From positions 1 through 26,749 of the IMG/VR virus record IMGVR_UViG_3300033149_003597: a stretch of DNA of 26,749 nucleotides; one strand, written 5' to 3'. The position numbers and the translations under genes were made by a program. The notes below the pieces were generated by a model that did no database searches, had not been told where the DNA came from, and saw only the letters and a list, made by a program, of their open reading frames with translations. The DNA is from a virus. This document shows, piece by piece, positions 8,047-22,421 of the stretch (its first letter is position 1; each line of letters opens with the position of its first letter).

Positions 8047-8065
8047 AGGAGTCAGAAAACGACAC

Positions 8066-8741: not shown

Positions 8742-8982
8742 GTTGTCTAAGAAGAAAAAGAAAGATTGGTTAATCGTCTGTCATATGTGGTTCGTTCATG
8801 ACATAGGATTCGTCAGTGAAATATTCATGGACGCAACACAAGAAGAGGCGGAAGAAGAAGCAATTCTATTCGCACATAGGCACGAAACACCATTTCGAAA
8901 AGCAAAAGCAAAGGCATTTGAACTGCCGGGTGACCTCAACAAGACAAGAGAGGGGGCCTCGGCGGCTCTGACCCATTTTTGA
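8742..8982 (+). CDS. Small acidic/basic hypothetical protein
   Basis: The likely start is TTG 8742 (MSKKKKKDWLIVCHMWFVHD, 79 residues), because upstream GTG 8653 would place the start inside the preceding gene and the terminator; AGGGA lies upstream. The product has a beta-like beginning (WLIVCHMWFVHDIG) and an acidic helix (ATQEEAEEEAILFAHR), then a lysine- and alanine-rich stretch. I do not recognise it. It is the first gene after the terminator, and no strong promoter was seen for it. Confidence 0.45.
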
Positions 8983-9003
8983 ACCAAGAAAAGGAAGCCC
9001 AAG

Positions 9004-9369
9004 ATGATCAAATCACTGGTAGGAGTTTTCAGGGAAATCGTAACCGGCGAACGTTTCCGTCAAAACGAATGCGGCCGATGTAGGCGTTGTAAGAAAAGGT
9101 GGTTTGAATCAGAACCCCACGTTACTATGGTGAATCGTTACCAGGGCTATTTTGCTATCTGCGAAAAATGTTGGCAGGAACTGGGCACCTTTGGAAAACG
9201 GCTACCTTATTATAGAATGTTGTTAGATGAATGGAATAGGAGCGGGGTGCCATGCGGCTCCTCATATAAGAAGTCTCTCATGAAGGCTCTGGCTAAAGAG
9301 TCGTGTGAGGATTATCTGAAGAAGTTAGATAAGGAAAAGGAAGAAATGGTTGCGTCTCTGTTTTCTTGA
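9004..9369 (+). CDS. Cys-rich putative zinc-binding protein
   Basis: This 121-residue protein has C23-x2-C26-x2-C29 followed by C53-x2-C56, an arrangement able to bind one zinc ion in a ribbon. A helical C-terminal part rich in Lys and Glu follows. An AAGGAAG purine run precedes ATG 9004. It is the first of several CxxC proteins in this block. Such proteins in phages are often nucleic-acid binding or act on host regulators, but no specific role can be claimed. Confidence 0.5.
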   Translation: MIKSLVGVFREIVTGERFRQNECGRCRRCKKRWFESEPHVTMVNRYQGYFAICEKCWQELGTFGKRLPYYRMLLDEWNRSGVPCGSSYKKSLMKALAKESCEDYLKKLDKEKEEMVASLFS

Positions 9370-9410
9370 GATTCTTACTTCCTATGACTGAAAGAGATGA
9401 GGGAAGGGCC

Positions 9411-9629
9411 ATGGCTTGCAAGTGCCATGAATGTGGAGGCTATTATAAGATAGATATACTTGTCTCGGACAATATATGGGAGAAGATCAAGCCGAGTGGC
9501 GTGGGACGGGAAGCTGGTTTATTATGCCCTGTTTGTATCGCCCATAAAATATGTACTGTTATTCAAGACGAAATTGGGTATGCCGCTTTTAGATTGGAAC
9601 GCGCAGACAACCAAGAAAAAGGAGAATAG
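9411..9629 (+). CDS. Small zinc-binding-like phage protein
   Basis: ATG 9411 was chosen because GGGAAGGG precedes it; earlier in-frame starts overlap the upstream gene. The 72-residue product has C3, C5, C8 and C39-x2-C42, with VSDNIWEKIKP between them and GLLCPVCI after. This resembles a widespread small phage family with a two-knuckle zinc site and the pattern WEKIxP...GLLCPxCI. Its function is not known to me. Confidence 0.55.
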   Translation: MACKCHECGGYYKIDILVSDNIWEKIKPSGVGREAGLLCPVCIAHKICTVIQDEIGYAAFRLERADNQEKGE

Positions 9630-9631
9630 CA

Positions 9632-9937
9632 ATGAATGAACTTGATAAGATAATAGAATTGGATAAGGGGTATATTGAAGAAGATGGTTGTTTGTGTATT
9701 TACGCCAATAATTTTGCTAACGAAGGCTTTCCTGTTAGACAGGCGTGCCGGTTTTATGGCAACACGCAAATCTTAGCATGCTCTTGTGATCACAACTGCT
9801 CACAGTTTCATGAGCCGCATTTGATAATCACAAAAGATGGCCAACGTATTATTCGGCTTCGTTTGTGCCGGACGACTTGGTATTTCCACGAGTCTGATTT
9901 CGAAGACCGCAGGAAAAATAAACCGCAGGAAAAATAA
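9632..9937 (+). CDS. Cys-rich hypothetical protein
   Basis: AAGGAG lies eight bases before ATG 9632. The 101-residue product carries several cysteines and histidines in its centre (CDHNCSQFHEPH near residues 52-63), and a basic tail. It could bind a metal. No family is recognised. It follows the previous gene by two bases and is probably co-translated. Confidence 0.45.
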   Translation: MNELDKIIELDKGYIEEDGCLCIYANNFANEGFPVRQACRFYGNTQILACSCDHNCSQFHEPHLIITKDGQRIIRLRLCRTTWYFHESDFEDRRKNKPQEK

Positions 9938-10028
9938 GAAGAACAAAAAGTTTGCGTCGAATGTAATCAAGCCACATGGACCGCACGTGGAGGTCCGCAC
10001 TTTGTCTAGGATGAGGAGTAATTATTAT

Positions 10029-10196
10029 ATGGCACGGGGACCGTTTCTTTCTGAGTACAAGATCAGCAGGATAAAAGAGATGGCGAAGGAGGGGTATGAC
10101 CGACGCACCATAGCGGAGAGGCTAGGAATTTCATATCGGTCAGTAGCAAACTACGATGGCCGAAAGAAACCGCGTGACGGAGGCTCTAAGAAATGA
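10029..10196 (+). CDS. Small helix-turn-helix protein
   Basis: GAGGAG at 10014-10019 sits well before ATG 10029, giving a 55-residue protein; ATG 10011 is possible. The core ISRIKEMAKEGYDRRTIAERLGISYRSVANYDG is a clear homeodomain/resolvase-type helix-turn-helix with the recognition helix around SYRSVANY. This suggests a DNA-binding regulator or a lone DNA-binding module. Its stop overlaps the next start (ATGA). Confidence 0.6.
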   Translation: MARGPFLSEYKISRIKEMAKEGYDRRTIAERLGISYRSVANYDGRKKPRDGGSKK

Positions 10197-10606
10197 AACT
10201 AACAGCTTGTGATTATTGTGGGAAGGTAGGGGAGGATGTCCGTGCTCACTGTTTTGTACATGATAGAAGCCTAGATCCATCGGGGAATGGGTACGAGGAT
10301 ATTACCATTTCTTTCGATGCTTGCTCAAGTTGTTATGCCGAGATTTTGTATGATGCCTTACGTGATGCTATGGTCAATGGCGTCGTAAAGCGTCGTGCCG
10401 ACAACAAAAAGCAAATTGAATATGCAATAGGCGAGCGGATAAGAAGGGCGGTGGCCAAGAAGGAAAAGGCAAAGTCAAAAAATTCCACTTCATCTCTTTC
10501 GATAAAGATAGAAAAGATAGATCCTGTGAGTCTTTTTGAGGATGAGGTATTCTTGGACAGATTAATCCAGAGGATAAAAGACAGTATGAAGAGCGATTTC
10601 GATTAG
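10193..10606 (+). CDS. Putative zinc-finger protein
   Basis: The 137-residue product has C6-x2-C9 at its beginning (ACDYCGKVGED) and a second CSSC pair near residues 44-47, likely forming one zinc site. A long charged helix follows, then an acidic-helical tail (FEDEVFLDRLIQRIKDSM). It is translationally coupled to the helix-turn-helix gene by an ATGA overlap, so they may act together. No family is recognised. Confidence 0.5.
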   Translation: MKLTACDYCGKVGEDVRAHCFVHDRSLDPSGNGYEDITISFDACSSCYAEILYDALRDAMVNGVVKRRADNKKQIEYAIGERIRRAVAKKEKAKSKNSTSSLSIKIEKIDPVSLFEDEVFLDRLIQRIKDSMKSDFD

Positions 10607-10616
10607 GAGTAAGAAA

Positions 10617-11147
10617 ATGCATGTAGTCGATCCCAGCGCCATTGTTCCTGTATCCGTTTCCCAGGTCCTGTTAGCATCGTTGGTGGTTTTGTGTGGTTTG
10701 TCCCTGCTAACCGTGGGACTCATAAAATTCATCTTGGGTAAGATCATCAAGGACGTTGAATCCGAAGAGCGCGTCACCAGCGATATGATGAAGTCGATAA
10801 AAGAAAGCATAGATGTTTTGGGTAGATCATTCGTCGAGTATAAGGATTCGTGGCCACAAAGGCGCGAAGCATTGTTGGAAACCTTTGATCATATATGCGA
10901 TAGAAAACAAGAGGCGTGCTCGAAACTAATGGAACAACGGATAACCAATTCCGAGCTTTCGATGCAGACAACACTGGCGTCAATACAGAGTAACCAGGAG
11001 CACTTATGCGGCATGGTAGAGGGGATGAGAAAGGAAATCGACGCCAAGTGGAAAGAGATCGAAAGAAACCGGCGTGAGTTGTCGGACAGGATAGACAAAC
11101 TGGTGTTATCTAATAGGCAGAGTGAGCGGGAATTTGGTGCGATATGA
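10617..11147 (+). CDS. Membrane-anchored coiled-coil protein of the lysis region
   Basis: This 176-residue protein starts after AGGAG. It has one hydrophobic segment at about residues 17-40 (VLLASLVVLCGLSLLTVGLI) and then a long, charged helical region, with heptad-like segments near 100-165 (SIQSNQEHLCGMVEGMRKEI, WKEIERNRRELSDRIDKLV). The shape is that of an anchored coiled coil. It lies just before a second such protein and the endolysin gene, so a role in holin accessory function or envelope disruption is possible. That is inference from context only. Confidence 0.5.
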   Translation: MHVVDPSAIVPVSVSQVLLASLVVLCGLSLLTVGLIKFILGKIIKDVESEERVTSDMMKSIKESIDVLGRSFVEYKDSWPQRREALLETFDHICDRKQEACSKLMEQRITNSELSMQTTLASIQSNQEHLCGMVEGMRKEIDAKWKEIERNRRELSDRIDKLVLSNRQSEREFGAI

Positions 11148-11148
11148 A

Positions 11149-11553
11149 ATGCCTTATTATAGATGGGGTCATGCAGTGAATATGGCATTCCGAAAAATAA
11201 CACTGGTAACGTCTGCCGTTTTGGGAATAGGCGGTGTTATCAGTTTAGGTGCCGCGGTGGATGAGAGGCACACTCACCAAGATGTTACGCGCCCCGAGTT
11301 TATAACTGTCTGCAAGAACGTAACCTCTTTAATGGTTTGGCGTGAACAACAAAATCTTTTCAGTGCTCGTGAGAACATCCAAAGGCAGATTTGGAACTTG
11401 CAGGATCGTTGGCGTGGTAAGGAAATGCCCCAATCTGCTATTGATGATCTAAGATCGTTGAAGCAGCAGAAGAGTGACATAGACAGAGAGTTGGATGAAG
11501 TTATACGCAAGATAAAGAAAGAGGCTGGTGGCGCCACATACAAAACGAGGTAA
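11149..11553 (+). CDS. Spanin-like membrane/coiled-coil protein
   Basis: The product (134 residues from ATG 11149; ATG 11179 is also possible, with GGGG upstream) has one N-terminal membrane segment at about residues 17-37 (ITLVTSAVLGIGGVISLGAAV). A periplasm-like domain with a C-terminal coiled coil (LRSLKQQKSDIDRELDEVIRKI) follows. This topology, next to the endolysin and holin, is what inner-membrane spanins (Rz-like) look like. No separate Rz1-type lipoprotein gene was found, so the spanin label is an inference. The start overlaps the previous gene's end region. Confidence 0.45.
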   Translation: MPYYRWGHAVNMAFRKITLVTSAVLGIGGVISLGAAVDERHTHQDVTRPEFITVCKNVTSLMVWREQQNLFSARENIQRQIWNLQDRWRGKEMPQSAIDDLRSLKQQKSDIDRELDEVIRKIKKEAGGATYKTR

Positions 11554-11559
11554 AAGACC

Positions 11560-12006
11560 ATGTCAATTTCATGGGATAAAGTGCCGCATTTCACCAGGGA
11601 AGAATTCGACGATCCTCTTTACCCAGGATCGGGAGATCTTATTGACGGCGTGTTGTTGCATCTCTTGGTCAAGACGCGACTCGAAACTGGTTGGTTCATG
11701 ATAACACACGCTGCAGTTGGTGGCTGCGTGGACGTTGATGGCAAGCACGGGCACAGCCCCCATTCTTATCATCGTAAAGATATGGGATGTAAAGCCTGTG
11801 ATTTTCACTTCAAGACCAAGGTTTCGCCGAGAGAACAATTTTATGTTTTGATGCGTATGGGGTTTACTGGCATCGGGGTTTATTTTGACTGGCATTGGGG
11901 TGGTAAGCTCCTGCCTATCGGATTTCACGTTGATACCAGGCCGCGCATTTGTTGTCAGGTATGGACCCGCAGGAATGGGAAATACATTTATTTATTGGAG
12001 GGTTGA
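11560..12006 (+). CDS. Endolysin, M15-type peptidase
   Basis: The 148-residue product is a stand-alone peptidase M15 (D-Ala-D-Ala carboxypeptidase / L-Ala-D-Glu endopeptidase fold). Zinc-site residues follow the family pattern: SYH71, then CDFH with D81, and GFHVD with H123; D125 is next to it. The segments GFTGIGVYFD, GFHVDTR and a Trp-containing end are also typical. It would cut peptidoglycan peptide cross-links after the holin opens the inner membrane. It has no signal peptide, so it depends on the holin encoded next. GAGG lies upstream of ATG 11560. Confidence 0.8.
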   Translation: MSISWDKVPHFTREEFDDPLYPGSGDLIDGVLLHLLVKTRLETGWFMITHAAVGGCVDVDGKHGHSPHSYHRKDMGCKACDFHFKTKVSPREQFYVLMRMGFTGIGVYFDWHWGGKLLPIGFHVDTRPRICCQVWTRRNGKYIYLLEG

Positions 12007-12537: not shown

Positions 12538-12543
12538 GCAGTG

Positions 12544-13194
12544 ATGTTTTATTTCGTAACAGGACACCAAAGAGCAGGCACTCATACTTTTGCCGAGAAG
12601 CTGGCCCAAGACCTGGGCTTACCCTACTTGGATGAGCGTATCATCGGGCTGGATGATTGGGAAGGGCTGCAACAACTTCTCAATGGCAAGATTCTGAAGT
12701 GGGGGGCCAATGGCAAAAAACAATGGATCGACAAGCCCGAGTTGAGGAATGGGTTCGTTCTACAGTGTCCTTTCCTTGCCCATAAGACCCTTGAGCTTGC
12801 AAAGATAGGGAGGGTGTACTGGTGCACAAGGGATCATTTTGACATAGCAGCCAGCAAGGCACACTGGAATTTCGACGAGCTTCTATGGAAGATCATGAAT
12901 GCCTTTCACGACGAATTTCCAGATGATCCGGTATGGGAAACCCTGAAATATGAGGGTCGCGAGGACGTACACGCTAAGTTTGCGGGCTATGCCTACCTGG
13001 TTTGCAAGGTCAAGCGCTACTTTTACCAGACCAAATTTAAGCCGGTAGTGTTCCAGCGGGTGGTTTTGGAAGAACAACCTTACTATGATCCGGCCTCAAC
13101 GGCGGCGAAACAATTCCCCCTGAAACCCGGCATGGCAAAGCAGATCCAGAGGATGGAGGCGCTCAATGAAAGTATATGCCTTCGTGAAAATTAG
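12544..13194 (+). CDS. Sulfotransferase-like P-loop protein
   Basis: The 216-residue product (from ATG 12544; GTG 12541 is directly adjacent) begins FVTGHQRAGTHTFAEKLAQDLG, a P-loop of the sulfotransferase type (GxxRxGTxT) rather than the GKS/T form of kinases. VYWCTRDHFDIAASKAHWNF, near residues 90-110, resembles the sulfotransferase segment VxRDxxDIxASxxR. Such proteins use PAPS to sulfate sugars or proteins, and related forms occur in phage genomes. It lies just before a CxxC protein and the Ser-rich beta-helix protein and could act in decorating the virion. The substrate is unknown. Confidence 0.6.
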   Translation: MFYFVTGHQRAGTHTFAEKLAQDLGLPYLDERIIGLDDWEGLQQLLNGKILKWGANGKKQWIDKPELRNGFVLQCPFLAHKTLELAKIGRVYWCTRDHFDIAASKAHWNFDELLWKIMNAFHDEFPDDPVWETLKYEGREDVHAKFAGYAYLVCKVKRYFYQTKFKPVVFQRVVLEEQPYYDPASTAAKQFPLKPGMAKQIQRMEALNESICLREN

Positions 13195-13627
13195 ACATCA
13201 TCCCCAAGAACCTGATGGACCGGGGGTTCACTATGGGGATATTGTGAGCTTCCATCGGGTGGAATCCAAGCGCTCAGAAGAGGAGCTTAAGTTTTTCTTG
13301 CCCGTCCTGGTTGATATCAACATCCCCTGTGGTGACAAGTATGACCGTGAGATGCGCGGCAAATGCGGTAAGTGTAAATGGAATGACCCAGAAGTCTGCG
13401 ATGTTCAAAAGTACTGTCGGGGGGAGTGGTCGGAGGGGACCCTGTTTGAGCCTCCGACACTGACAAAAAAGAGACGATACAAGCTTGATCTCAAGTCTAT
13501 CCTTCCCAGCGATAAACTGTCGCTGGCGGAGAAAGAAGAAAAGACCGAAAAAGACAGGCTTGCGGTCCTGGACTATGCAAGCAAAAATGAAATAAGCCCG
13601 AGTCTTATTGTGGATAAGGTGAAGTAA
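13166..13627 (+). CDS. CxxC-containing conserved-style phage protein
   Basis: This 153-residue protein overlaps the end of the sulfotransferase-like gene by 29 bases, with GGAGG upstream of ATG 13166. It has VDINIPCG at residues 50-56, then a Cys cluster GKCGKCKWND (C67, C70), C78 and C84 in CDVQKYCRGEW. The layout resembles phage proteins that bind zinc and sit near structural genes. A similar CxxCKWND motif occurs in the early protein at 20406. No function is known to me. Confidence 0.55.
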   Translation: MKVYAFVKIRHHPQEPDGPGVHYGDIVSFHRVESKRSEEELKFFLPVLVDINIPCGDKYDREMRGKCGKCKWNDPEVCDVQKYCRGEWSEGTLFEPPTLTKKRRYKLDLKSILPSDKLSLAEKEEKTEKDRLAVLDYASKNEISPSLIVDKVK

Positions 13628-15945
13628 TGGCCTGGTACGCGGACAAACTAGTTGCCCCCAGTGGAGGAGATTACACCAAACTCTCTGACTTTGAGGCTGC
13701 TTATGATGGTGTTGACATCAGCGGCACCGATGGGGTACGTGCCAGGCTTCAGGGGACAGATGGGACAACGACCACCAATATTTATTGGAATGGCTGGCAA
13801 GCCGGACAGTCGTCGTCCTGCAAAATAGTCGTCGAGGCGGATTCTGGCTATGAAACAGATGGAACTGACGGGGATGGTGTTGATAACGCTCGAATCAGCA
13901 AGCAGTTTTATTTGACTGGAAGCTCCTCCGGAGCTCTGTATGTTGAGATCCATGGCATAGAGTTCTACGGTGGAGACGTACCAATCAGCAGTGGAAATAC
14001 TTTTGTTGGTGGAGACCTTGAAGTCACTAAATGCTTGATTCGCGATAGTAGCGCGGCTAGCGGAAGAGGTATGTATTTTACTGATACTGCTGCCCTGACT
14101 GTAAAGGTGGGTGGATGCCTAATTAAAGGTTTTACCGGCACATACGGAAATGCGATTCGAACAAATGATGCTGATGTAACTCTCACGGTTATAAATACAA
14201 CTTGTGCAGAGTGCAATCTCAAGGGGATCAACAACTCAGCCGGATCTATTACCTTGACTAATGTTGCGGTCGTAAATTGTGGGGATGACCTAAACGGAAC
14301 CATTACCGAAAACTATGTGTTGACAGAAGATGACGGAGAACTAACTAACAACGACGCTGATGATTTCACCGCTCCCAGCACCGATGACTACACAGTATAT
14401 GACACCAACTCGGCGCTCTATCACGCAGGGACGACTGTAAGCGATAGTTGGTTCACGAGCCGCTGCTCCACGGATTTTGACGGCACGACTTGGGATGCCA
14501 GTACACCGTCAGTGGGAGCGTGGGAGTATGCTGCTTCTTCTAGCAGTTCAAGCACTTCTTCTAGCCACAGTTCATCATCGTCTAGTACCAGCTCCAGCAC
14601 AAGCTCGTCTAATAGTTCGTCGAGTTCAAGCAATAGCAGTTCGACCTCATCCAGTAATTCAAGTTCATCCAGTTCCACCAGTTCAAGCACCAGTACCAGT
14701 TCGAGTTCTTCATCTGAGTCAGTATCGTCTAGCACAAGTGTGTCCAGTAGTTCATCGAGCACCAGCAGTTCGGAGTCGGTTTCATCAAGCTCAAGTAGCA
14801 CGAGTTCGAGCAACAGCTCGTCTAATAGCAGTAGTTCATCGTCCGAATCGGTTAGCAGTTCAACATCATCAAGCAGTAGTTCGCCTAGCTCGTCTAGCAG
14901 TTCAAGCACCAGTTCGTCAACTTCGAGTTCAAGCTCCAGCAGTTCATCTAGTACAAGTAACAGCTCAAGTACATCATCGAGCAGTTCCAGTACCAGTTCA
15001 AGCTCGTCGAGTTCCCCCAGCTCGTCTAGCAGTTCAAGTACCAGTAGTTCATCGTCCTCCGAGTCTAGCAGTAGTTCAATATCATGCGCGGCTCTGACCG
15101 AGGACGATTTTGATGATAATACAACGGCGGATTGGTGGATATGGAGTCCAGGGACGGGCGGTAGCCACGTTGAAGAAAATCAGGTCCACAAAATAACTGC
15201 CGGGAGCGGGGATGATGGATCACGTTCAACGGCAACCAGGTTGTACCAATGTGGTGTTGATGGTGAATTTGATTGGCAGATAGATTGCAGTTTCGTAGAC
15301 ATAGACGAGGGCGATCGTTATGGTATAATGTTTTGGTCAACCCTGCCCGCTGGTAACCACATTCAATTGAATAGGGGTAAGATTGGATCTGACCAGGTAA
15401 TTCAATACACCACATCTGATCTTGGCGATAAAGGCGAGGTTGTTCTTCCATCAAACGATACGGTAACGTTGCGGATGAAGAGAGACACCGATGGGTATTT
15501 CTCTCTCTATTATAAGATGCCCGGAGGTTCGTGGAATACATTGCTGGCGCAGTCTTCGGGCACCCTGACTGGTGATGGCGAGCTTGGTATGTTTGCCAAG
15601 TATTTTTCAGTGCAGTTCACAGTAGAATTTGATAATTGGGAACAATATTCAAGTTCATCCAGCTCCACCAGTTCATCCAGTTCTTCATCCTCTACCAGCA
15701 CAAGTTCGTCCACTAGCAGTTCATCGTCCAGCACCAGTTCCTCTAGCAGTAGTTCCTCATCGAGCTCTGAGTCAAGTTCTAGCAGTAGTTCGGAATCGGT
15801 TTCTAGCAGCAGTTCATCCTCGTCGTTGTCTTCATCATCGCTGTCTTCCAGCTCATCATCTTATAGCAGTTCGAGCAGCAGTTCAATATCAACAACAGTT
15901 GTAGGGGAGGTGGGAGTTCTTTTTCAACCAAAAGAGTTGGCGTAA
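13627..15945 (+). CDS. Large beta-helix virion protein with two Ser/Thr-rich linkers
   Basis: The 772-residue product has four parts. Residues 1-303 look like a right-handed beta-helix, with short strand repeats (LEVTKCLIRDSS, LTVKVGGCLIKGF, VTLTVINTTC). Residues about 304-486 are almost only Ser with Thr, Asn and Glu. Residues 487-674 form a compact beta domain resembling lectin/LamG sandwiches (DWQIDCSFVDIDEGDRYGIMFW, TVTLRMKRDTDGYFSLYYK). A second Ser tract covers about 675-755, and a short tail (VGEVGVLFQPKELA) closes it. The Ser codons are mixed (AGC, AGT, TCA, TCG, TCC, TCT), so selection seems to act on the protein. It is followed by transferase genes, so the tracts may be glycosylated. 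The start is at a TAATG overlap. Confidence 0.75.
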   Translation: MAWYADKLVAPSGGDYTKLSDFEAAYDGVDISGTDGVRARLQGTDGTTTTNIYWNGWQAGQSSSCKIVVEADSGYETDGTDGDGVDNARISKQFYLTGSSSGALYVEIHGIEFYGGDVPISSGNTFVGGDLEVTKCLIRDSSAASGRGMYFTDTAALTVKVGGCLIKGFTGTYGNAIRTNDADVTLTVINTTCAECNLKGINNSAGSITLTNVAVVNCGDDLNGTITENYVLTEDDGELTNNDADDFTAPSTDDYTVYDTNSALYHAGTTVSDSWFTSRCSTDFDGTTWDASTPSVGAWEYAASSSSSSTSSSHSSSSSSTSSSTSSSNSSSSSSNSSSTSSSNSSSSSSTSSSTSTSSSSSSESVSSSTSVSSSSSSTSSSESVSSSSSSTSSSNSSSNSSSSSSESVSSSTSSSSSSPSSSSSSSTSSSTSSSSSSSSSSTSNSSSTSSSSSSTSSSSSSSPSSSSSSSTSSSSSSESSSSSISCAALTEDDFDDNTTADWWIWSPGTGGSHVEENQVHKITAGSGDDGSRSTATRLYQCGVDGEFDWQIDCSFVDIDEGDRYGIMFWSTLPAGNHIQLNRGKIGSDQVIQYTTSDLGDKGEVVLPSNDTVTLRMKRDTDGYFSLYYKMPGGSWNTLLAQSSGTLTGDGELGMFAKYFSVQFTVEFDNWEQYSSSSSSTSSSSSSSSTSTSSSTSSSSSSTSSSSSSSSSSSESSSSSSSESVSSSSSSSSLSSSSLSSSSSSYSSSSSSSISTTVVGEVGVLFQPKELA
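14536..15084 (+). repeat. First Ser-rich low-complexity tract
   Basis: About 183 codons encode runs of Ser with scattered Thr, Asn, Glu and Val. The DNA is built from variants of AGT-TCA and AGC-AGT blocks using all six Ser codons. The encoded segment is likely extended and unstructured and is a candidate O-glycosylation region. It ends SSSSSIS before Cys 487. Confidence 0.85.
15649..15891 (+). repeat. Second Ser-rich low-complexity tract
   Basis: About 81 codons are almost entirely Ser with Thr, Glu, Val, Leu and Tyr. It has the same codon mixture as the first tract and also ends with SSSIS before the last 14 residues. It separates the lectin-like domain from the short C-terminal tail. Confidence 0.85.
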
Positions 15946-15978
15946 CCATCGCCAAGAAACAAGTGGGGGCAGGATTCG

Positions 15979-16554
15979 ATGTATGATATAGAATATTATG
16001 AAAAGATGCTGAGGGAATACTCTTCAACGGCTCATGAGATATCACGCATCCGTTGGGAGTGGATTTTGGATCACTGCGGAAAAGTAAAAACCGTCCTTGA
16101 CTATGGAAGCGGCGTCGGGTGGTTTCGTGCCTGGCGTCCGAAAGGGGTAGACGTCTATTCATATGACATCGGCCCTTACCCACAAACAGGTATTCCATTG
16201 ATGATGTTCGACGTCCTGTGTTTTTGGGACGTCCTGGAACACATACCGAACTTTGATCATATACAACCAGTGATTTCTTTGGCTAAGAACATTGCTGTCA
16301 CCGTGCCCTTATTCACGGGCGGGGACATAACAAAGTGGAAGCATTTTAAGCCCAAGGAGCACCTTCATTATTTCACTAAGGAAACGCTGACCAGTTTGTT
16401 TCCTGGATTTAAGCACGTCTATATGGCGTGGCCGGAGTGCCCACCTAGGGAAGACGTTGCTAGTTTTATGTTTATGAAGACGCCATCCAGAACAGAAAAG
16501 ACCGGCGTTAAGAGGTACGACAATTATAAGGTGGAGGTCGTGGATGAAGGATGA
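15979..16554 (+). CDS. Class I SAM-dependent methyltransferase
   Basis: The 191-residue product has the SAM-binding motif I TVLDYGSGVGWF near residues 38-49, followed by GVDVYSYDI (motif II) and LCFWDVLEHIP (residues 80-90), in the pattern of Methyltransf_23-type enzymes. Such enzymes methylate sugars, lipids or small molecules, and are frequent in surface-polysaccharide clusters. Its place after the Ser-rich protein and before two glycosyltransferases suggests sugar or glycan O-methylation. A GGGGGCAGG purine run precedes the start. The last residues overlap the next gene (ATGA). Confidence 0.75.
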   Translation: MYDIEYYEKMLREYSSTAHEISRIRWEWILDHCGKVKTVLDYGSGVGWFRAWRPKGVDVYSYDIGPYPQTGIPLMMFDVLCFWDVLEHIPNFDHIQPVISLAKNIAVTVPLFTGGDITKWKHFKPKEHLHYFTKETLTSLFPGFKHVYMAWPECPPREDVASFMFMKTPSRTEKTGVKRYDNYKVEVVDEG

Positions 16555-17468
16555 AGACGCGAAAGATAATACTGAGGCAGGGGCAGAGCCCGGGCGATAT
16601 ATTGACCATGTCGAGAGCGGTAGCGGATCTGAAATTGACGTTTCCTTCTTGGCAGATAGACGTTCGGACCCCGTGCCCGGCAATATGGGAAAATAACCCC
16701 CACCTGACAAGGCTGAGCAGGACCGACTCTTCGGTAGAAGAGGTTGATGTTAGGTACGATGAGATTAACCAGTCCGGTTGGCGTGGGCATCATTTTACGG
16801 ATGCCTTCCGGCATGATATTGAGAAAAAGTTAGGTGTCAAGATAAAAAAGACCGGCATTAAACCGGAAATCTATTTATCAGAGGAAGAGAAAAGCTGGGT
16901 TAACCAAGTGGAAGTTGAGTTCGGATGGAAAGGGGCCTTTTGGCTTATCAATGCCGGATATAAGCCCGACAACGAGTTGAAATTTTATCCTAGGTGGCAG
17001 GAGGTAGTGGATGCATTCAACGAGTATTTCAAAGGTGCCATTCGTTTGGTTCAAGTGGGTCACGTCAACCACCGCCATCCAAGGCTCAAAGGCGTCTATG
17101 ATCTGGTGGGAAGAACTGATTTGCGACAGCTTATTCGCCTAGCTTGGTGGGCACATGGGACTATTGGGCCGTTGAGCTTTCAATTTGTGTTGTCCGCCGC
17201 CTATGAACAACCACACGTAGTTGTGGCAGCCGGGAAGGAGGGCGTTCGTTGGCACATATACCCACACGGGCGGTACCTCTATACAAACGGCGCGTTGAAT
17301 TGCTGTCTGTGGGATGGATGTTGGAAGGGTGGAGAGAAAGGGAAATGCGTTGATTTAGTGCCTGGATCGGGGCCACGTTGTTTTGAGTTGATTCGTCCAT
17401 ATATGATCGTAGACGCGGTTAAGATGTACTATGAAGGTGGAAGGCTTGACCTAACCAGAGGGAAATGA
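16551..17468 (+). CDS. GT9-like glycosyltransferase
   Basis: The 305-residue product begins IILRQGQSPGDILTMSRAVADLKLTFP, matching the N-terminal signature of family 9 (heptosyltransferase-like) glycosyltransferases, which have a GT-B fold. Residues about 125-215 form a second Rossmann-like half (GAFWLINAGYK, IRLVQVGHVNHRHPRL, VYDLVGRTDLRQLIRLAWWA). GPLSFQFVLSAAY and a late Cys cluster (ALNCCLWDGCWKGGEKGKC) follow. GT9 enzymes transfer heptose or similar sugars to an acceptor. In a phage it could glycosylate virion or host surface components. The start overlaps the previous stop and the stop overlaps the next start. Confidence 0.75.
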   Translation: MKTRKIILRQGQSPGDILTMSRAVADLKLTFPSWQIDVRTPCPAIWENNPHLTRLSRTDSSVEEVDVRYDEINQSGWRGHHFTDAFRHDIEKKLGVKIKKTGIKPEIYLSEEEKSWVNQVEVEFGWKGAFWLINAGYKPDNELKFYPRWQEVVDAFNEYFKGAIRLVQVGHVNHRHPRLKGVYDLVGRTDLRQLIRLAWWAHGTIGPLSFQFVLSAAYEQPHVVVAAGKEGVRWHIYPHGRYLYTNGALNCCLWDGCWKGGEKGKCVDLVPGSGPRCFELIRPYMIVDAVKMYYEGGRLDLTRGK

Positions 17469-17479
17469 GGGGGATTGTC

Positions 17480-18907
17480 ATGGAGAAGTTGGCATTTAAC
17501 AACGGCGCAATCAGTTTGTCCGACTGGGAAGGGATCGAACAGTTCATTGACGATCATGCCATTATGGACGTTCTGGAGTTTGGCTCAGGAATGTCCACTA
17601 TCTGTTTTTTGCGGAAGGGCCTGCGTGTCGATTCATATGAAACCAACATTAAATGGATGGATAAGGTAGCAGACCAAGCCCGCGCCGAGGGTTTAAAAGG
17701 TTGGACTATCTCTTTGTGGGACAATAAAAACACGCCCGAGGGTTTATCCGATGGGTATGATTTGGGGTTCATCGACGGCAAGGAACCGCGCGACGCTCAA
17801 TTGGTTATTGCTATGTCCAATTGTAAGTATATTCTAATCCATGATGGTATGCGGAAACAGGAAAAGAAAATCATTGATGCCCTTTTGTTGCCTGACCTGT
17901 CATGGCACGAAGTGGAAGTCAAAGGCAGGTGTAGGGCATTTGCTGCATTTGCTAAAGAAAGGACTGCTTATATTAAGGAAACCGAAAAACCAATGGCGGC
18001 GCAACAAAGTAAGCCTAAAGGCAGGTCCCCTTATTCCATTGTTACTTCATTCACGCCGAACTATACCCAGTACCTGGTGGCGTTGTTGAATAGCCTGGAT
18101 TACCACAGGCATGATGATGTGGATGTCCATGTTCTGGCCGTTGATCCCAACGAGAAAATACTGCAAAAAATCATGGCCGTCGATTGGTGTTTTAATCTCA
18201 TGATCATACCCTCATATGAGTTTGTTGATTTCTCGGATACGCGGTACGAAAGCCTTGCTATGACCGCCAAAAAATCACGGTATTCTTTCTTGCAAGGGAT
18301 AATGAACAATACCACATATGATGCGCTTCTGTTCATGGATTGTGACATGTTCTTCACTGCCAACGTTACCAGGTTTTTTGAAATGGTGCAGGGCACGGAC
18401 ATTTTATTAGGGTGTAACGAGCGATTTAAATGGAACATGAATCGTTTCATGTATAAGGGGCAGGAGTTGAAAGATGTGACGATGCGCTGGATGGTGTGTA
18501 ATGCGCCTTTGTTTTTCTGTCCTTCGAGAAACAAGAAATTGGTATTCTGGATGAATGAGATGGCGAAACACCTTTCGAATATTTCTGACGGCAAGCGTCC
18601 CAGCGATCTATATACTATGAATGTGGCCATTGGAATCAGCGGCAAAGACAAGGACGTTATCAGTCTGCCCGACTATTCGTGGACAGGGGTTCATAGCAGT
18701 TATCTGCATTGGTTGACGCGCGCCGTTCTTATCAATACTCATTCCGGACTTGATGAAATGTTTTCCTTGACAGGTGAAATGGATGAGGACGTGAAAATGT
18801 CACTCAGAGCGGCATCGCAAAGAAGCATCACAGACATCAAGAAGGCATGGAATTTCTACACCACGCAACACAAACTTTCTTTGGCTGATATAGGGGTTTT
18901 AAAATGA
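17480..18907 (+). CDS. Methyltransferase-glycosyltransferase fusion protein
   Basis: ATG 17480 is preceded by GAGGGGG at the right distance; ATG 17465 overlaps the preceding stop and is an alternative. Of the 475 residues, about 1-160 form a class I methyltransferase-like Rossmann domain (MDVLEFGSGMSTICFL near 29-44; DLGFIDG near 94-100; YILIHDG near 117-123). A linker near 165-183 leads to a GT-A type glycosyltransferase domain starting YSIVTSFTPNYTQYLVALLNS, with the DxD motif at LLFMDCDMFF (D287 and D289), which binds the metal-nucleotide sugar. The two activities on one chain suggest making and capping of one glycan. The acceptor is unknown. Confidence 0.75.
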   Translation: MEKLAFNNGAISLSDWEGIEQFIDDHAIMDVLEFGSGMSTICFLRKGLRVDSYETNIKWMDKVADQARAEGLKGWTISLWDNKNTPEGLSDGYDLGFIDGKEPRDAQLVIAMSNCKYILIHDGMRKQEKKIIDALLLPDLSWHEVEVKGRCRAFAAFAKERTAYIKETEKPMAAQQSKPKGRSPYSIVTSFTPNYTQYLVALLNSLDYHRHDDVDVHVLAVDPNEKILQKIMAVDWCFNLMIIPSYEFVDFSDTRYESLAMTAKKSRYSFLQGIMNNTTYDALLFMDCDMFFTANVTRFFEMVQGTDILLGCNERFKWNMNRFMYKGQELKDVTMRWMVCNAPLFFCPSRNKKLVFWMNEMAKHLSNISDGKRPSDLYTMNVAIGISGKDKDVISLPDYSWTGVHSSYLHWLTRAVLINTHSGLDEMFSLTGEMDEDVKMSLRAASQRSITDIKKAWNFYTTQHKLSLADIGVLK

Positions 18908-19278
18908 CTGTCACTACCTACGAAACCGACGCATTTCCCGAAAAAGGAACGGTTGGCATAGAAATCTCATTTACCGATGAAAACGGGAACGCCGTCACGC
19001 CCGATTCTATCACATGGACGTTGACTAATATGCCTGCATCTTACACGGAAACGCCGACTGTCATAAATAACAGGGAGGATGTATCGGTCACGCCTGATTC
19101 GACTGTCACGGTTGTGTTAAAGGGGGATGATTTGTCGCTCTTATCTACGGAACTGGATGAGTCTTTCGTGGATAGGGTGCTTTCCTTGGAATATACCTAT
19201 ACGAGCAGTTATGGGTCAGGGCTGCCGGGAAAGGCACAATACATCTTTACCGTCGAGAATATGTACTACAATAACTGA
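18904..19278 (+). CDS. Small Ig-like beta-sandwich protein
   Basis: The 124-residue protein is beta-rich and lacks Cys and a signal peptide. EISFTDENGNAVTPDSITWTLTN and VTPDSTVTVVLKGDDLSLLS resemble Ig-like or bacterial adhesion-type folds common in phage head decoration and tail proteins. It is translationally coupled to the fusion enzyme by an ATGA overlap. It may be a decoration protein or an acceptor of the glycans. I have no family name for it. Confidence 0.5.
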   Translation: MTVTTYETDAFPEKGTVGIEISFTDENGNAVTPDSITWTLTNMPASYTETPTVINNREDVSVTPDSTVTVVLKGDDLSLLSTELDESFVDRVLSLEYTYTSSYGSGLPGKAQYIFTVENMYYNN

Positions 19279-19285
19279 GGACGGG

Positions 19286-19540
19286 ATGAATTACGCATAT
19301 TATCGGTCGAGATTTCCCTTGCCTGTCTATCGCGGACCAAACCCCCCGGAGGGGGAATGGATGACAGTATCCGAAGCAGCCGAGCATTTCGGGGTCAGTC
19401 CCCAGACAATCCGTCTCTGGACCCTTGTGTGGAGCAAGTGCAAGAAGCAATCCGCGCCCCTGCCCTCCTATATTGAGATCGCCGATTGCGTCCGTTGGAT
19501 AAAACCAGGCCAGAAAAGGGGAAAAATTTTGGTCAGGTAA
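19286..19540 (+). CDS. MerR-like / excisionase-type helix-turn-helix protein
   Basis: ATG 19286, preceded by GAGGACGGG, gives 84 residues. The segment WMTVSEAAEHFGVSPQTIRLW is a textbook MerR/excisionase-type helix-turn-helix, with the recognition helix around SPQTIRLW. The rest is short and basic at the end. It is the last gene before the terminator and the early promoter, so it is well placed to regulate that junction. Because family members include regulators, excisionases and terminase-like subunits, the exact role stays open. Confidence 0.6.
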   Translation: MNYAYYRSRFPLPVYRGPNPPEGEWMTVSEAAEHFGVSPQTIRLWTLVWSKCKKQSAPLPSYIEIADCVRWIKPGQKRGKILVR

Positions 19541-19647
19541 AAAATTTTCGAATTTTTTTGTGAGATCAGCGAAATCAGGAGCTTTTTCGAGAAAATCGGA
19601 GAATTTCTTTAATTTTTTTAGGTAATCCGGCGTAATCATCGAACAGG
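19541..19647. other. AT-rich non-coding stretch before the terminator
   Basis: This stretch has many A and T runs (TTTTTTTG, AATTTTTTTA) and no credible gene in either strand. It begins the 391-base gap between the late and early blocks. The rest of the gap holds the terminator, promoter and leader listed next. Confidence 0.6.
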
Positions 19648-19691
19648 TCCGATATTCCCTTTAAACCGGGGTATATCGGATTTTGTTTTTT
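19648..19691 (+). terminator. Rho-independent terminator at the end of the late block
   Basis: TCCGATAT (19648-19655) pairs with ATATCGGA (19673-19680). CCC (19657-19659) also pairs with GGG (19669-19671) after one T-T mismatch, leaving a short loop. The stem is followed by TTTTGTTTTTT. It probably ends rightward late transcription after the MerR-like gene. Confidence 0.75.
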
Positions 19692-19710
19692 GCACTTCTT
19701 CATATATAAT
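19683..19710 (+). promoter_or_regulatory. Probable sigma70-type early promoter
   Basis: TTGTTT (19683-19688) and a perfect TATAAT (19705-19710) are separated by 16 bases. The -35 box lies inside the T-tail of the terminator, so the two elements overlap. Transcription would start near 19717 and run into the early genes. Confidence 0.6.
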
Positions 19711-19932
19711 ATGAGCGTGTTTTCGGGTAAGGGGTTCTTTTAAAACTGAAGAAAGTTGAAAGTTGCCGGACAGGGAAGCCGAAGGGTTGGGCAGGGAGCG
19801 GGACGTTGGGAAGCTCCCGAGACAGGCGGCGAGACCTAGGGCGCAGATCAACTCTTGATCCTGTCTATTACGATGACGTAGTAGGCAGAGATGAGGGGTT
19901 GATTACTAACCTTAAGATGAAGGAGGAACAAA
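19711..19932 (+). promoter_or_regulatory. Structured RNA leader of the early operon
   Basis: The stretch of about 215 bases between the promoter and the first early gene has several strong stems: GGGAGC/GCTCCC (19794-19799 with 19813-19818) and GATCAA-CTC-TTGATC (19846-19860). Two copies of GACAGG (19769-19774 and 19821-19826) can each pair with CCTGTC (19860-19865). Competing pairings suggest a switching or antitermination leader. I see no known riboswitch and no gene in it. Confidence 0.4.
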
Positions 19933-20139
19933 ATGGAAAGGACTTACGAAATAGAGGCTAAAAACAGGTGGCACGCGGCCGCCATCGTAGACCACATCCT
20001 CTGCCAGGGCAAGGCTTTTGGCCTCGGCGATGCTTACCATCGCGGGGCCACGGTTATCCTCACCTGCGTGGGGGAACCTCGCCGCAAAGACCGGTTTCAC
20101 TTCCTCGCGGGCCTGTTTCGCGAGGACTTCACCCAATAA
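19933..20139 (+). CDS. Small early protein
   Basis: AAGGAGG before ATG 19933 is a near-perfect ribosome site. The 68-residue protein has a helical beginning (YEIEAKNRWHAAAIVDHIL), a short beta region (GATVILTCVGEP) and a basic-aromatic end. It is the first gene after the structured leader and would be made early in infection. No family is recognised, so it may be a host-takeover protein, but that is only position-based inference. Confidence 0.5.
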   Translation: MERTYEIEAKNRWHAAAIVDHILCQGKAFGLGDAYHRGATVILTCVGEPRRKDRFHFLAGLFREDFTQ

Positions 20140-20146
20140 CTGCAAC

Positions 20147-20164
20147 GAGGGGCCTCGGCCCCTC
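20147..20164 (+). promoter_or_regulatory. GC-rich hairpin in the intergenic gap
   Basis: GAGGGGC (20147-20153) and GCCCCTC (20158-20164) form a seven-base stem with a four-base CTCG loop. No T-run follows, so it is more likely an RNA processing or stability hairpin than a terminator. A second stem, CCTCGCG/CGCGAGG (20103-20109 with 20119-20125), lies just before it in the gene end. Confidence 0.4.
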
Positions 20165-20211
20165 CTACACCAGGGACGAAGGGATTATGCGATTCAAGAA
20201 GGAGGACTAAC

Positions 20212-20409
20212 ATGTTCTATCCGATCATTTATCGAAGAAAGGATGGCACCATTGACGCCCTCGCGGCCCGGACAAAGAGGGCGGCCGTAGGGCGGAAGCG
20301 GATGCTCGAAAGAAACCCCGACGTGGAAGTCGCGCGGATTTTGCCCAAAGGCAATTACCGCTATTCGGAATTGATCTGTATGGATCCGAGAAAGGAGGAA
20401 ACGGCATGA
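20212..20409 (+). CDS. Small basic early protein
   Basis: The ribosome site AAGGAGG precedes ATG 20212 by six bases. The 65-residue product is basic and short, with strand-like YPIIYRRKDGTIDAL and a KRMLERNPDVEV helix. Its stop overlaps the next start (ATGA), so translation of the following gene is coupled. No family is recognised. Confidence 0.5.
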   Translation: MFYPIIYRRKDGTIDALAARTKRAAVGRKRMLERNPDVEVARILPKGNYRYSELICMDPRKEETA

Positions 20410-21152
20410 CAGCAACAAAAGCCCATTATCGCAGGCTTGAAAGCATCATCAACTCCCTTCGAGATTCGACTTATCTTAGCGTTTCTCTGAAGGGAGAAAC
20501 CGTATTTTTTAATGGACTCAACAGCCCCTATTCGTCCCATTGCTCCGTCCAGGTAGAACAGGGCCACGGTTTCAGCCGACTCGCCGTTTTTCGGAACCGC
20601 CGGGCCGTCCTGGCCATCACCCCTCGGTTCCCCGGCGGCAAGTTCGAGGGAGCGTTTCAAACCCTCGACCTGCCGGCATACCACCTTTTCCCGCTCTTCC
20701 ATTTCCCCCTTACCAGACCGGATTGGGTGAGGGATCTAATTAAAGTAACGTTTTTGGACACCTTCTCCCGCTTCGACGACGACGGAAAAGTGATCCAAAA
20801 ACCTCTCCACGAACAATACCTGCTCTACAAAGAAGAAGAGGATGGACTGGACTTAGTAATTGTCCCCAAGCTGGAGTACCACAGCCACAAGATCGGCTGC
20901 AAGGAAATCCGGTATTATCCCCGAAAGAAAATAATCTTTGTGGGAGATAGGGAAATCCACCTCGGAGAAGAATTTGAATACAAAATACCCTACCAATACG
21001 ACGAGGAGGTAGAAGAAATGCTCCACTCGTGGGGTTTGATGTTTGCGCACAATTGTCCTGACCCATGTCCCGGTGACAAGGATGATCAGGCATGCCTCAC
21101 GTGTAAGTGGAACGACAAGCACGTAATTGTTAAGCAGGAGGAAACGAGATGA
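20406..21152 (+). CDS. Early protein with C-terminal Cys cluster
   Basis: This 248-residue protein of unknown function is mostly beta and alpha/beta in character (TYLSVSLKGETVFFNG, LAVFRNRRAVLAITPRF). It ends with four cysteines at C217, C221, C230 and C233, in the arrangement CPDPCPGDKDDQACLTCKWND, which could bind a metal ion. The CxxCKWND motif also occurs in the unrelated-looking late protein at 13166. Translation is coupled to the previous gene, and its last bases overlap the next gene's start region. No enzyme motif is seen. Confidence 0.5.
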   Translation: MTATKAHYRRLESIINSLRDSTYLSVSLKGETVFFNGLNSPYSSHCSVQVEQGHGFSRLAVFRNRRAVLAITPRFPGGKFEGAFQTLDLPAYHLFPLFHFPLTRPDWVRDLIKVTFLDTFSRFDDDGKVIQKPLHEQYLLYKEEEDGLDLVIVPKLEYHSHKIGCKEIRYYPRKKIIFVGDREIHLGEEFEYKIPYQYDEEVEEMLHSWGLMFAHNCPDPCPGDKDDQACLTCKWNDKHVIVKQEETR

Positions 21153-21398
21153 AAGTATTTCGACCGACTCGACAATGGGTAGAGGCTCCGGCCCGTGGTG
21201 GACATTTTCGCCCGGGGCGACGACATCCAGGGGCGGGCATTCGTGTGCTATTACACGAAATTCTCCGACTGCTCAAGGATCTCCGGCAGCGCCAAGGAGG
21301 GTGAACTGGTCATGTCCATTCCTGCTGTCAGCGAATACCGCACCTCGTGGCAGGTGCCGGACGAGGCCATAACCGAAGATATAGAGGAGGCATTCTGA
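21149..21398 (+). CDS. Small early protein split by an apparent frameshift
   Basis: AGGAGG lies before ATG 21149, which starts MKVFRPTRQWVE; in that frame the sequence then turns Arg/His/Leu-rich and stops at 21302-21304. The frame one base later is open from 21183 to the stop at 21396-21398 and reads LRPVVDIFARGDDIQGRAFVCYY and then SEYRTSWQVPDEA, which has the look of a real protein. The joined version is about 82 residues. One extra base near 21183-21194 would explain it. A GTG at 21195 could start the second part alone, but it lacks a ribosome site. The function is unknown. Confidence 0.55.
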
Positions 21399-21601
21399 TG
21401 AGATGCGTCTTATGTAGCCAGCCCGAAAGGGCCTTCAACTCGCTTCGCCTCCGCAAGGTCGAGGCAAAGCACCCAGCCAGGGAGAAGTACCGCCCGCTCC
21501 AGGCTATCGTATGCGGACGGTGCATTCAGGATCTTCTACGGGAAACGGCGGACATCCCATGGGAGGGGATGCAGATTGTAAGAAGGAGGAGGACCCGATG
21601 A
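21398..21601 (+). CDS. Small zinc-finger-like protein
   Basis: ATG 21398 overlaps the previous stop (TGATG), with AGGAGG upstream. The 67-residue protein has C3-x2-C6 and C39-x2-C42, a single zinc-ribbon layout (MRCVLCSQ...AIVCGRC), and a very basic end (RRRRTR). Its stop overlaps the start of the sigma-like gene by ATGA. It may bind nucleic acid or RNA polymerase, but that is inference from its neighbours and charge. Confidence 0.55.
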   Translation: MRCVLCSQPERAFNSLRLRKVEAKHPAREKYRPLQAIVCGRCIQDLLRETADIPWEGMQIVRRRRTR

Positions 21602-22092
21602 CCAGCGAAGTATTCGAAAAGTTTTCTGACATGGTACGAAAGTTGGCCTGGAGCGCCTCCCGAGCCTCAGGCCTTGACTACGAGGAACTGTTTGCGGAAG
21701 CGTGCCTGGGGTTGATAGAGGCTTGGCCCCGGTACGATCCGGAGCGAGGGGCTGCGTCAACCTTTATATGGTGCGCGGTCCGCAATCACCTCAACACCTA
21801 TCTATCTAAGGAGACAAAGCAGGCTCGGTATGAGCTCCCCGCTTCAAATCCTTCCCGCGTCGAGTCCACTTCGAAGGCAGCGCACATGATAGGAAAGCTG
21901 AGCAAGGAGGCTCGGGAGGTGGTGTTGGCCTTGTTCGAGGCCCCGGGCGAAGTGTTCGAAATCGTTGCCGACGACACGCCCCGGACCATCCGCAGGAAGA
22001 TAAAGGACGCCTTGAGACGTGTGTATCCGGCAAAGAAGGCCGAAGATGTTTTCAAGGAGATCAAGGCGGCCGTTCGCGACCATCTTGGATAA
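21598..22092 (+). CDS. Phage-encoded sigma factor-like protein
   Basis: The 164-residue product starts with AGGAGGAGG upstream. Residues about 24-66 match sigma70 region 2: DYEELFAEACLGLIEAWPRYDPERGAASTFIWCAVRNHLNTYL. The part near 97-140 (LSKEAREVVLALFEAPGEV, RTIRRKIKDALRRV) resembles a degenerate region 4-like helix-turn-helix. A protein like this could direct host RNA polymerase to phage promoters at a stage switch. Sigma-like proteins with weak region 4 occur in many siphoviruses, and whether this one is active is unknown. It is coupled to the zinc-finger gene by an ATGA overlap. Confidence 0.6.
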   Translation: MTSEVFEKFSDMVRKLAWSASRASGLDYEELFAEACLGLIEAWPRYDPERGAASTFIWCAVRNHLNTYLSKETKQARYELPASNPSRVESTSKAAHMIGKLSKEAREVVLALFEAPGEVFEIVADDTPRTIRRKIKDALRRVYPAKKAEDVFKEIKAAVRDHLG

Positions 22093-22106
22093 GAGGAGGA
22101 CAAAAG

Positions 22107-22421
22107 ATGACTGAAAAAACCGACAAGGTGACCAGTCTATTGGAAAAGGATGAATATGTGGTGGGGGCCCTCATGAGGCTCTATTCGTTTCAGACACAAG
22201 ACGAAAGAATGTCTCAAGGAACTCATTGGCAGAATTCAATGGGTTTCAACGCGATAGATGCCCCCTTTCTGACCTCTCTTGCGCACCAGTACGAAGCGAA
22301 GGGGTTCCTAACCGACCGGCAGATTCACGCCTGTCGCAAGGCCCTCAGCCGCTCAGGAACAAGCCCAAGACTCTCATTCCCAAGGAAGGCCATCAAGGGC
22401 CTGCTCGGTCCGCCGTCATAA
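22107..22421 (+). CDS. N-terminal module ahead of the SNF2 helicase
   Basis: This 104-residue frame starts after AGAGGAGG. It reads MRLYSFQTQDERM...GTHWQNSMGFNAIDAPFLTSLA...KGFLTDRQIHACRKAL, the kind of small helical domain commonly found next to or fused with phage helicases. After residue 80 the sequence turns unlike a protein (RSGTSPRLSFPRKA), whereas the frame used by the SNF2 gene reads LRNKPKTLIPKEGHQG at the same place. I infer that this and the next gene were one, joined by a -1 or +2 shift near 22350. Confidence 0.6.
   Translation: MTEKTDKVTSLLEKDEYVVGALMRLYSFQTQDERMSQGTHWQNSMGFNAIDAPFLTSLAHQYEAKGFLTDRQIHACRKALSRSGTSPRLSFPRKAIKGLLGPPS

Follow-up and report, generated by a model that had tools for sequence, protein, structure and literature searches.

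A phage gene cassette that may glycosylate its own serine-tract virion protein

The locus and its serine-tract protein

The window analysed here (26,749 bases, positions 1 to 26,749 of IMG/VR virus record IMGVR_UViG_3300033149_003597) is the entire contig G000:C217 of a genome bin of 5.06 Mb in 418 contigs, and carries an operon (12541–19278) in which a protein with two long serine (Ser) tracts is encoded next to a methyltransferase, a GT9-fold glycosyltransferase and a protein with a GT8-like glycosyltransferase half (Table 1). The contig belongs to a tailed phage, given that a major tail protein (PHROG 158), a tape measure protein (TMP_3), a gene transfer agent (GTA)-type holin, a helicase and a primase were recognised; tRNA genes were not found in the window. 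The operon, which lies after the holin gene, is real: the methyltransferase, GT9, fusion and Ig-like genes are joined by successive start/stop overlaps of 4 bp, and the stop codon of the Ser-tract gene lies 33 bp upstream of this overlapping run. We suggest, with moderate confidence, that the cassette O-glycosylates a Ser-tract virion protein of the phage itself, with the GT9-fold enzyme adding heptose (or a close relative), the GT8-like enzyme extending it and methylation modifying the product.

Ser makes up 33% of the 772-amino-acid (aa) protein versus 6.9% of nine other proteins of the window, and 208 Ser residues fall within the two tracts (139 in aa 315–486 and 69 in aa 675–755). As all six Ser codons are in use in the gene (50, 25, 37, 30, 54 and 62 times) and Tandem Repeats Finder detected no DNA tandem repeats in its tracts, we rejected a DNA repeat artefact or replication slippage as their origin; the tract is therefore kept at the protein level. 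The N-terminal 310 aa matched no Pfam or PHROG family and had no homologue in viral contigs, so that of the beta-helix protein with two Ser/Thr tracts that a preliminary description had seen here, the two Ser tracts are confirmed and the beta-helix is not. The protein itself is presumably part of the virion.

Table 1 Features of the operon and of the Ser-tract protein
Feature	Position	Strand	Assignment and remarks
P-loop protein	12541..13194	+	sulfotransferase-like according to the preliminary description; no significant family
Small protein without assigned function	13166..13627	+	overlaps the genes on both sides
Ser-tract protein, 772 aa	13627..15945	+	proposed glycan acceptor; no family match
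Ser-tract protein, N-terminal domain			aa 1-310
Ser-tract protein, Ser tract 1	14569-15084		
Ser-tract protein, globular middle domain			~aa 487-674
Ser-tract protein, Ser tract 2	15649-15891		followed by a short C-terminus
Class I S-adenosylmethionine-dependent methyltransferase (cluster c2)	15979..16554	+	conserved GT9 partner; PF13489 E 9e-11, above cut-off
GT9-fold glycosyltransferase (cluster c0)	16551..17468	+	proposed Ser O-heptosyltransferase-like enzyme; predicted structure and alignments
Fusion protein	17465..18907	+	N-terminal methyltransferase-like part (unconfirmed); C-terminal GT8-like glycosyltransferase (~aa 187-440), proposed glycan extension
Ig-like/beta-rich small protein, 124 aa	18904..19278	+	last of the overlapping gene set; Big_1 E 0.07, not significant

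Recurrence of the cassette with Ser tracts

Pattern-plus-tblastn scans recovered the GT9 gene at 24 loci in viral sequences and at 13 in genomes. Close GT9 homologues are 55–76% identical despite differing surrounding genes, and most of their loci carry the c2 methyltransferase directly upstream of GT9 or nearby and GT-A type enzymes downstream. The long Ser proteins are mostly non-homologous in blastp clustering, the exceptions being, in the L018/L019 group, the cement proteins and, in L025 and L027, a pair of Ser proteins. A search for the same gene set in other phages had been proposed as a check in the preliminary description, and the pair of GT9 and methyltransferase does recur beside non-homologous Ser-tract proteins.

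Counting as a Ser tract any 20-aa stretch with Ser at 70% or more of its positions in a same-strand open reading frame (ORF), we found one at 12 of 21 non-redundant GT9 phage loci; of 120 random viral loci picked with an arbitrary 14-mer, 2 had one (length-scaled expectation 0.75; Fisher p 3e-10). Further along the same contigs (L016, L022, L026 and L030, and L015 at its cut end) the tally becomes 16 of 21, an extended count without a matched control. The reverse sample was drawn as DNA matching a Ser-codon pattern and gave 77 loci with a real poly-Ser tract, or 76 after one that shared a contig with a control was dropped; its controls were 42 contigs that matched the pattern yet lacked a poly-Ser ORF (L161 was excluded as lying on the same contig as the poly-Ser locus L103) and 50 random contigs. 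A GT9 profile match at E <1e-20 was present in 8/76 Ser-tract contigs versus 0/42 pattern-matched and 0/50 random contigs (Fisher p 0.026 with the 42 controls and 0.0014 with all 92), and weak partial matches (E ~1e-7) occurred in two of the 42. In five of the eight contigs (41–436 kb; G047, G087, G100, G074 and G045; G074 seems similar to G100), GT9 and the tract are at most one gene apart. The association of GT9 with Ser tracts in phages is non-random in both search directions, even if the p values overstate the independence of the counts because of shared ancestry. On G074, G100, G047 and G045 (L174, L182, L055 and L178), GT9 adjoins long Ser-tract ORFs or lies one gene away, divergently in G074 and G100, and G045 has two GT9 copies ~73 kb apart.

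Such neighbourhoods could also arise if the cassette and the Ser protein were adjacent simply through operon packing in a late accessory region and functionally unlinked, as phage accessory genes do cluster by tail and lysis genes and as related phages of common ancestry do not provide independent cases. However, the association is strong in both directions and involves Ser proteins that are not homologous and different capsid families, and we regard this explanation as highly improbable.

The family also extends to two genomic settings not recognised as phage, L035 (Caballeronia telluris) and L036 (a Nitrospira metagenome-assembled genome), in which a GT9 42–43% identical lies 16–25 bp from a convergent Ser-tract gene. 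These are possibly a non-phage version of the enzyme–substrate pair, and hint at a more general tie between the GT9 enzyme family and Ser tracts. In L035:9953-13526 and L036:8780-13618, the gene for a Pro/Ser-tract protein is followed by two giant proteins (~1,200 aa) of no recognised family.

Carriers of the Ser tracts

Judged by the genes and domains recognised around them, the carriers of Ser tracts in related phages are virion proteins. The Ser tail of L018 and L019 forms the C-terminus of a protein that matches the cement family PF09956 (L018 just below and L019 just above the cut-off), encoded near a Mu gpT-type major capsid gene (the Pfam identification having been made in the relative L015). 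Elsewhere the Ser protein lies downstream of a Phage_cap_E-type capsid gene (L027) or of a Phage_capsid_3 gene (L033), or is followed in turn by a PHROG 399 head structural protein, a methyltransferase and GT9 (L012); in L103 it has a lectin-like LamG domain. Ser genes thus lie near capsid genes of different families, and one GT9 enzyme family therefore accompanies several capsid types. That the sugars decorate the phage's own fibre, as first suggested, is accordingly uncertain, given that in several relatives a capsid cement protein carries the Ser tail or the major capsid gene lies next to it.

Two further features of these relatives were observed. The Ser tracts of L021, L025, L027 and L034 have Cys or Phe every few residues (an SSSCSSSF pattern), in contrast to the Thr/Glu/Asn-interspersed tracts of the window, and could reflect disulfide cross-linking or a sequon. 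A 785-aa ORF of L015 (2-2359; cluster c10) contains a seemingly intein-like insertion (approximately from 'CMNGKTELIV' to 'VLANGIITSN') that is absent at the same place in L019.

The position of the tracts also bears on an alternative in which the transferases alter the surface of the infected host (lipopolysaccharide (LPS) or its core), perhaps to exclude superinfecting phages, and the Ser tracts are flexible linkers comparable to those in cellulases of some marine bacteria. Such a role would fit with the LPS heptosyltransferases among the members of GT9, with the location of the Ser tracts between globular domains, including the lectin-like LamG domain of L103, and with the many Ser-tract phages (the majority) that lack this GT9. 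Nevertheless, the cassette recurs by late structural genes and Ser-tract proteins in otherwise different phages, and no flippase-like gene was recognised beside the window cassette among the ORFs listed, which leads us to consider a host-surface target improbable.

The GT9-fold enzyme

The structure of the window enzyme was modelled with AlphaFold2 from thirty sequences (alignment A2, comprising the window and phage and bacterial loci), with a mean predicted local distance difference test score (pLDDT) of 92 and a predicted template-modelling score (pTM) of 0.90. In VIA-align comparisons with solved structures, the model matched 3tov (a GT9; Z 24.3), WaaF of Escherichia coli (1psw; Z 21.4), TibC (Z 21.1) and WaaC (Z 19.4), and matches to heptosyltransferase-type GT9s extended over 241–270 residues; plant NDH supercomplex subunits came next in the ranking (Z ~17), and unrelated glycosyltransferases and epimerases scored Z ~12 and lower. 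Foldseek likewise superposed TibC chains on the model (TMq mostly 0.63–0.69). As modelled, the enzyme has a heptosyltransferase-type GT9 (GT-B) fold along its whole chain. The window protein alone gave no significant Pfam match, Pfam GT9 included, and no NCBIfam match to the LPS heptosyltransferase RfaQ, which seven of nine family members do match (best E 4e-5). A sequence search of the PDB with GT9 profiles returned WaaF as the sole plausible match (E 0.06–0.6); as these sequence matches are weak, the GT9 assignment rests on structure and context. The original reading of this protein as a GT9-like glycosyltransferase is thus borne out by the fold of the model, though not by Pfam.

The putative catalytic Asp (D16, in a G15-D16 motif) is kept in 33 of 36 homologues and aligns with the GD of WaaF, WaaC and the bacterial autotransporter heptosyltransferases (BAHTs), and K144 is invariant in alignment A2; the two residues are in register with the catalytic D110 and the phosphate-binding K230 of TibC. 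Cysteines that are invariant or nearly so in the family (C251/C252, C257, C266 and C277) form a knuckle located where TibC has its iron finger. We considered this knuckle as a BAHT-specific mark and rejected it: it is missing from WaaC, WaaF, WaaU and the part of WaaQ compared, all of E. coli K-12, but generic bacterial GT9s have similar motifs. Membership of the BAHT family was also rejected. None of the nine family members matched the BAHT profile TIGR04414 (E up to 1), a profile that scores 502 bits with a true BAHT encoded at another place in the L035 genome; residues 1–302 of the model align to residues 91–393 of TibC with nothing preceding them, leaving no room for an N-terminal beta-barrel; and the neighbouring protein has no recognised autotransporter domain. 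The enzyme thus stands outside the BAHT family, yet may work like a BAHT. A search of 50,697 sequenced phage records found no homologue of this GT9, and relatives of the host genome gave generic or partial GT9 matches only.

Possible source of the sugar

The most informative point absent from the preliminary description is the combination of a GT9 heptosyltransferase fold with heptose-synthesis-like genes in sister cassettes. In L015, a methyltransferase–nucleotidyltransferase fusion, a PfkB kinase, a cupin protein and an epimerase are encoded between the capsid gene and GT9. Their best NCBIfam matches are heptose-1-P adenylyltransferase for the nucleotidyltransferase (172 bits versus a cut-off of 181.5), heptose-7-P kinase for the PfkB kinase (188 versus 345) and ADP-heptose 6-epimerase for the epimerase (204 versus 274.6). 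Homologues of most of these genes occur in L016–L020. The adenylyltransferase is matched strongly in 6 of 24 GT9 contigs scanned at full length (L015–L020; L017 scores 184.4, above the cut-off) and weakly in one more, and none of 26 random contigs has a strong match. The cupin protein (L015:8190-8828) carries a C-terminal 'YDYDGVVS' motif; this part of the protein may be a HAD-type phosphatase, for which a GmhB-like role is possible.

In the putative host bin, HldE domains I and II (heptose kinase and adenylyltransferase) were found above the cut-off, and no epimerase was. The route to ADP-D,D-heptose needs no epimerase. ADP-D,D-heptose is the donor used by TibC (PMC4358343).

Alternatively, the GT9-fold enzyme might glycosylate the Ser tracts with a non-heptose nucleotide sugar, the heptose-like genes of L015–L020 serving another step. 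The fold leaves the donor open, most GT9 contigs have no adenylyltransferase gene that was found and W305 of TibC is unmatched; yet the top glycosyltransferase structural neighbours are all heptosyltransferase-type GT9s, and in one lineage heptose-synthesis-like genes directly adjoin GT9. On balance we think a non-heptose donor unlikely.

Partner enzymes and neighbouring genes

The methyltransferase call of the preliminary description holds, its PF13489 match lying above the cut-off, and homologues of this enzyme (40–62% identical) adjoin GT9 or lie close to it in other phages. The next gene had been described as a methyltransferase–glycosyltransferase fusion, of which the glycosyltransferase half was recovered. 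This C-terminal half is confidently modelled and has a GT-A fold of the GT8 type (Foldseek E 2e-9 to glycogenin, with LgtC and LARGE1 also matched); the Pfam GT8 match, at E 0.004, is below the cut-off, and the profile match to E. coli WaaO was not significant. The methyltransferase half did not fare as well: a Rossmann-like VLEFGSGMSTICFL stretch and ORF homologues can be pointed to, with no profile match and a poor model (pLDDT mostly 30–50). Homologues of the fusion protein occur in other GT9 cassettes.

As DNA-glycosylating phage glycosyltransferases are well known (PMC12619734), the glycosyltransferases and methyltransferases might be thought to hypermodify phage DNA. The genes recognised in the window include none for nucleotide hypermodification, however, and the recurring neighbour of the cassette is a Ser-tract virion protein rather than a DNA-modifying enzyme, which renders this explanation the most improbable of those considered here.

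The P-loop gene at the start of the operon probably lies outside the conserved cassette. Its product resembles a sulfotransferase by eye in two motifs ('GHQRAGTHT' and WCTRDHFDIAASKAHW); no sulfotransferase profile in Pfam, PHROGs or NCBIfam matched it, the best profile being Cytidylate_kin2 (E 0.044, below the cut-off), and neither a homologue in viral contigs nor a counterpart in related cassettes was found. The sulfotransferase assignment thus stays at the level of motifs and, as the gene is not conserved, the sulfation of the glycan that had been built on it is not supported.

Elsewhere in the window, a perfect 16-bp tandem duplication (ACCGCAGGAAAAATAA; 9906–9937) ends the ORF 9632–9937 and falls within the overlapping ORF 9837–10196. 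The G+C content is ~43–50% over most of 4001–12000 and 13001–20000 (the tail, small-gene and cassette region) versus 53–57% in the replication region (20001–26749), a contrast that suggests a mosaic origin of the phage.

Proposed model for virion glycosylation

Assuming that the Ser-tract protein is indeed a structural protein, its O-glycan would be put in place before the phage is assembled. In the manner of a protein O-heptosyltransferase, the GT9-fold enzyme would move heptose or a closely related sugar from an ADP-activated donor to serines of the tracts; in the window phage, the donor may have come from the HldE pathway of the host. The GT8-like half of the fusion protein could then attach a further sugar, and one or more methyltransferases could O-methylate (that is, cap or modify) the glycan. 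A decoration protein of the capsid or tail would thereby gain a sugar coat resembling a bottle brush. The glycan, the Ser tract as its acceptor, heptose as the sugar, the order in which the enzymes act and the biological purpose are all parts of the model that we infer; protease protection, adsorption, masking and colloidal stability might be among the roles.

Several points weigh against this model. The heptose-contacting W305 of TibC has no counterpart in the alignment, and a TibC-like four-Cys knuckle is also found in ordinary bacterial GT9s, several of them from relatives of the host. Five of the 21 GT9 phage contigs have no Ser tract in the sequence examined and, conversely, 68 of the 76 Ser-tract viral contigs, several of them longer than 90 kb, have no such GT9, so that Ser tracts do exist without GT9. 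The heptose-synthesis-like genes are essentially those of one lineage and mostly fall below equivalog cut-offs; the link to heptose is otherwise based on the modelled fold, which cannot fix the donor sugar or the acceptor. HldE in the host bin is relevant only if the phage contig truly belongs to that bin, and the Ser protein of the window has no homologue that places it in the virion.

Given that the pair of GT9 and methyltransferase recurs beside Ser proteins that share no homology, in phages whose capsids belong to different families, we nevertheless find the idea of a glycan-decoration cassette supported. The central proposal of the preliminary description, a phage glycan-decoration system on a Ser-rich virion protein, is thereby partly upheld through recurrence and the two-way association, with sulfation left unsupported. 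The function is probably O-glycosylation of a virion protein, with O-heptosylation followed by extension and methylation. A broader scenario, which we offer tentatively, is that uncultured tailed phages possess their own protein O-heptosylation, in which a barrel-less GT9 acts on the poly-Ser tails of cement and tail proteins, some phages have a private ADP-heptose supply, methylation and extension follow, and poly-Ser tails have repeatedly evolved as glycan carriers. If true, this would give a purpose to some otherwise puzzling poly-Ser tracts of environmental phages, provide a sequence signature (GT9, methyltransferase and Ser tract) that predicts glycosylated virions, and add viruses to the bacterial autotransporters as a setting of protein O-heptosylation. 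Sugar-coated capsids are relevant to phage stability and recognition.

Comparison with known systems

The closest comparison is with the BAHTs TibC and AAH, which act on TibA and AIDA-I and are characterised by an N-terminal beta-barrel of ~97 residues, a four-Cys iron finger and an autotransporter substrate as neighbour (PMC4358343). Like these, the window enzyme has a GT9/GT-B fold (VIA Z 21) in which the catalytic Asp and the phosphate-binding Lys line up, a knuckle of four Cys close to the C-terminus, a gene that adjoins a presumed Ser-bearing acceptor and a plausible heptose donor. Unlike them, it is 305 aa in all, has no N-terminal beta-barrel, neighbours a phage Ser-tract protein rather than an autotransporter, and has a methyltransferase and a GT8-like enzyme as partners; profile–profile comparison with a true BAHT gave a weak, partial match (probability 7.7%), and both a TIGR04414 match and an equivalent of W305 are missing.

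Long Ser-rich tracts are also O-glycosylated in the serine-rich repeat glycoproteins of Gram-positive bacteria, which are modified in the cytoplasm and exported by the accessory Sec system (PMC7948813, PMC6973325). The window differs in its GT9/GT8/methyltransferase set and in its phage context. Poly-Ser linkers of the Teredinibacter type join globular, often carbohydrate-binding domains and have poly-Ser tracts in common with the window protein; we know of no dedicated adjacent glycosyltransferase for them. Polyserine has been mentioned for the modular polysaccharide-degrading enzymes of Teredinibacter and relatives (PMC2699552).

Among viruses, BFVD contains structural neighbours of the GT9 enzyme from uncultured Caudovirales (E 1e-15 and 3e-8), auto-named RfaF and Aah/TibC; these are phage-encoded GT9 folds like that of the window, with automatic names only and no system or acceptor described. 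Our literature search found no paper on phage heptosyltransferases acting on virions. Mycobacteriophage virions, as summarised in the part of PMC12619734 available to us, are glycosylated at the C-termini of their capsid and tail-tube subunits (Freeman et al. 2023). The two systems share phage structural subunits as glycan carriers, which are a proposal in the present case; for the mycobacteriophages, that part of the source describes neither long poly-Ser carriers nor an enzyme of the heptosyltransferase type. Phage virion glycosylation as such is therefore already known, by the same account, and what may be new here is its GT9/poly-Ser form.

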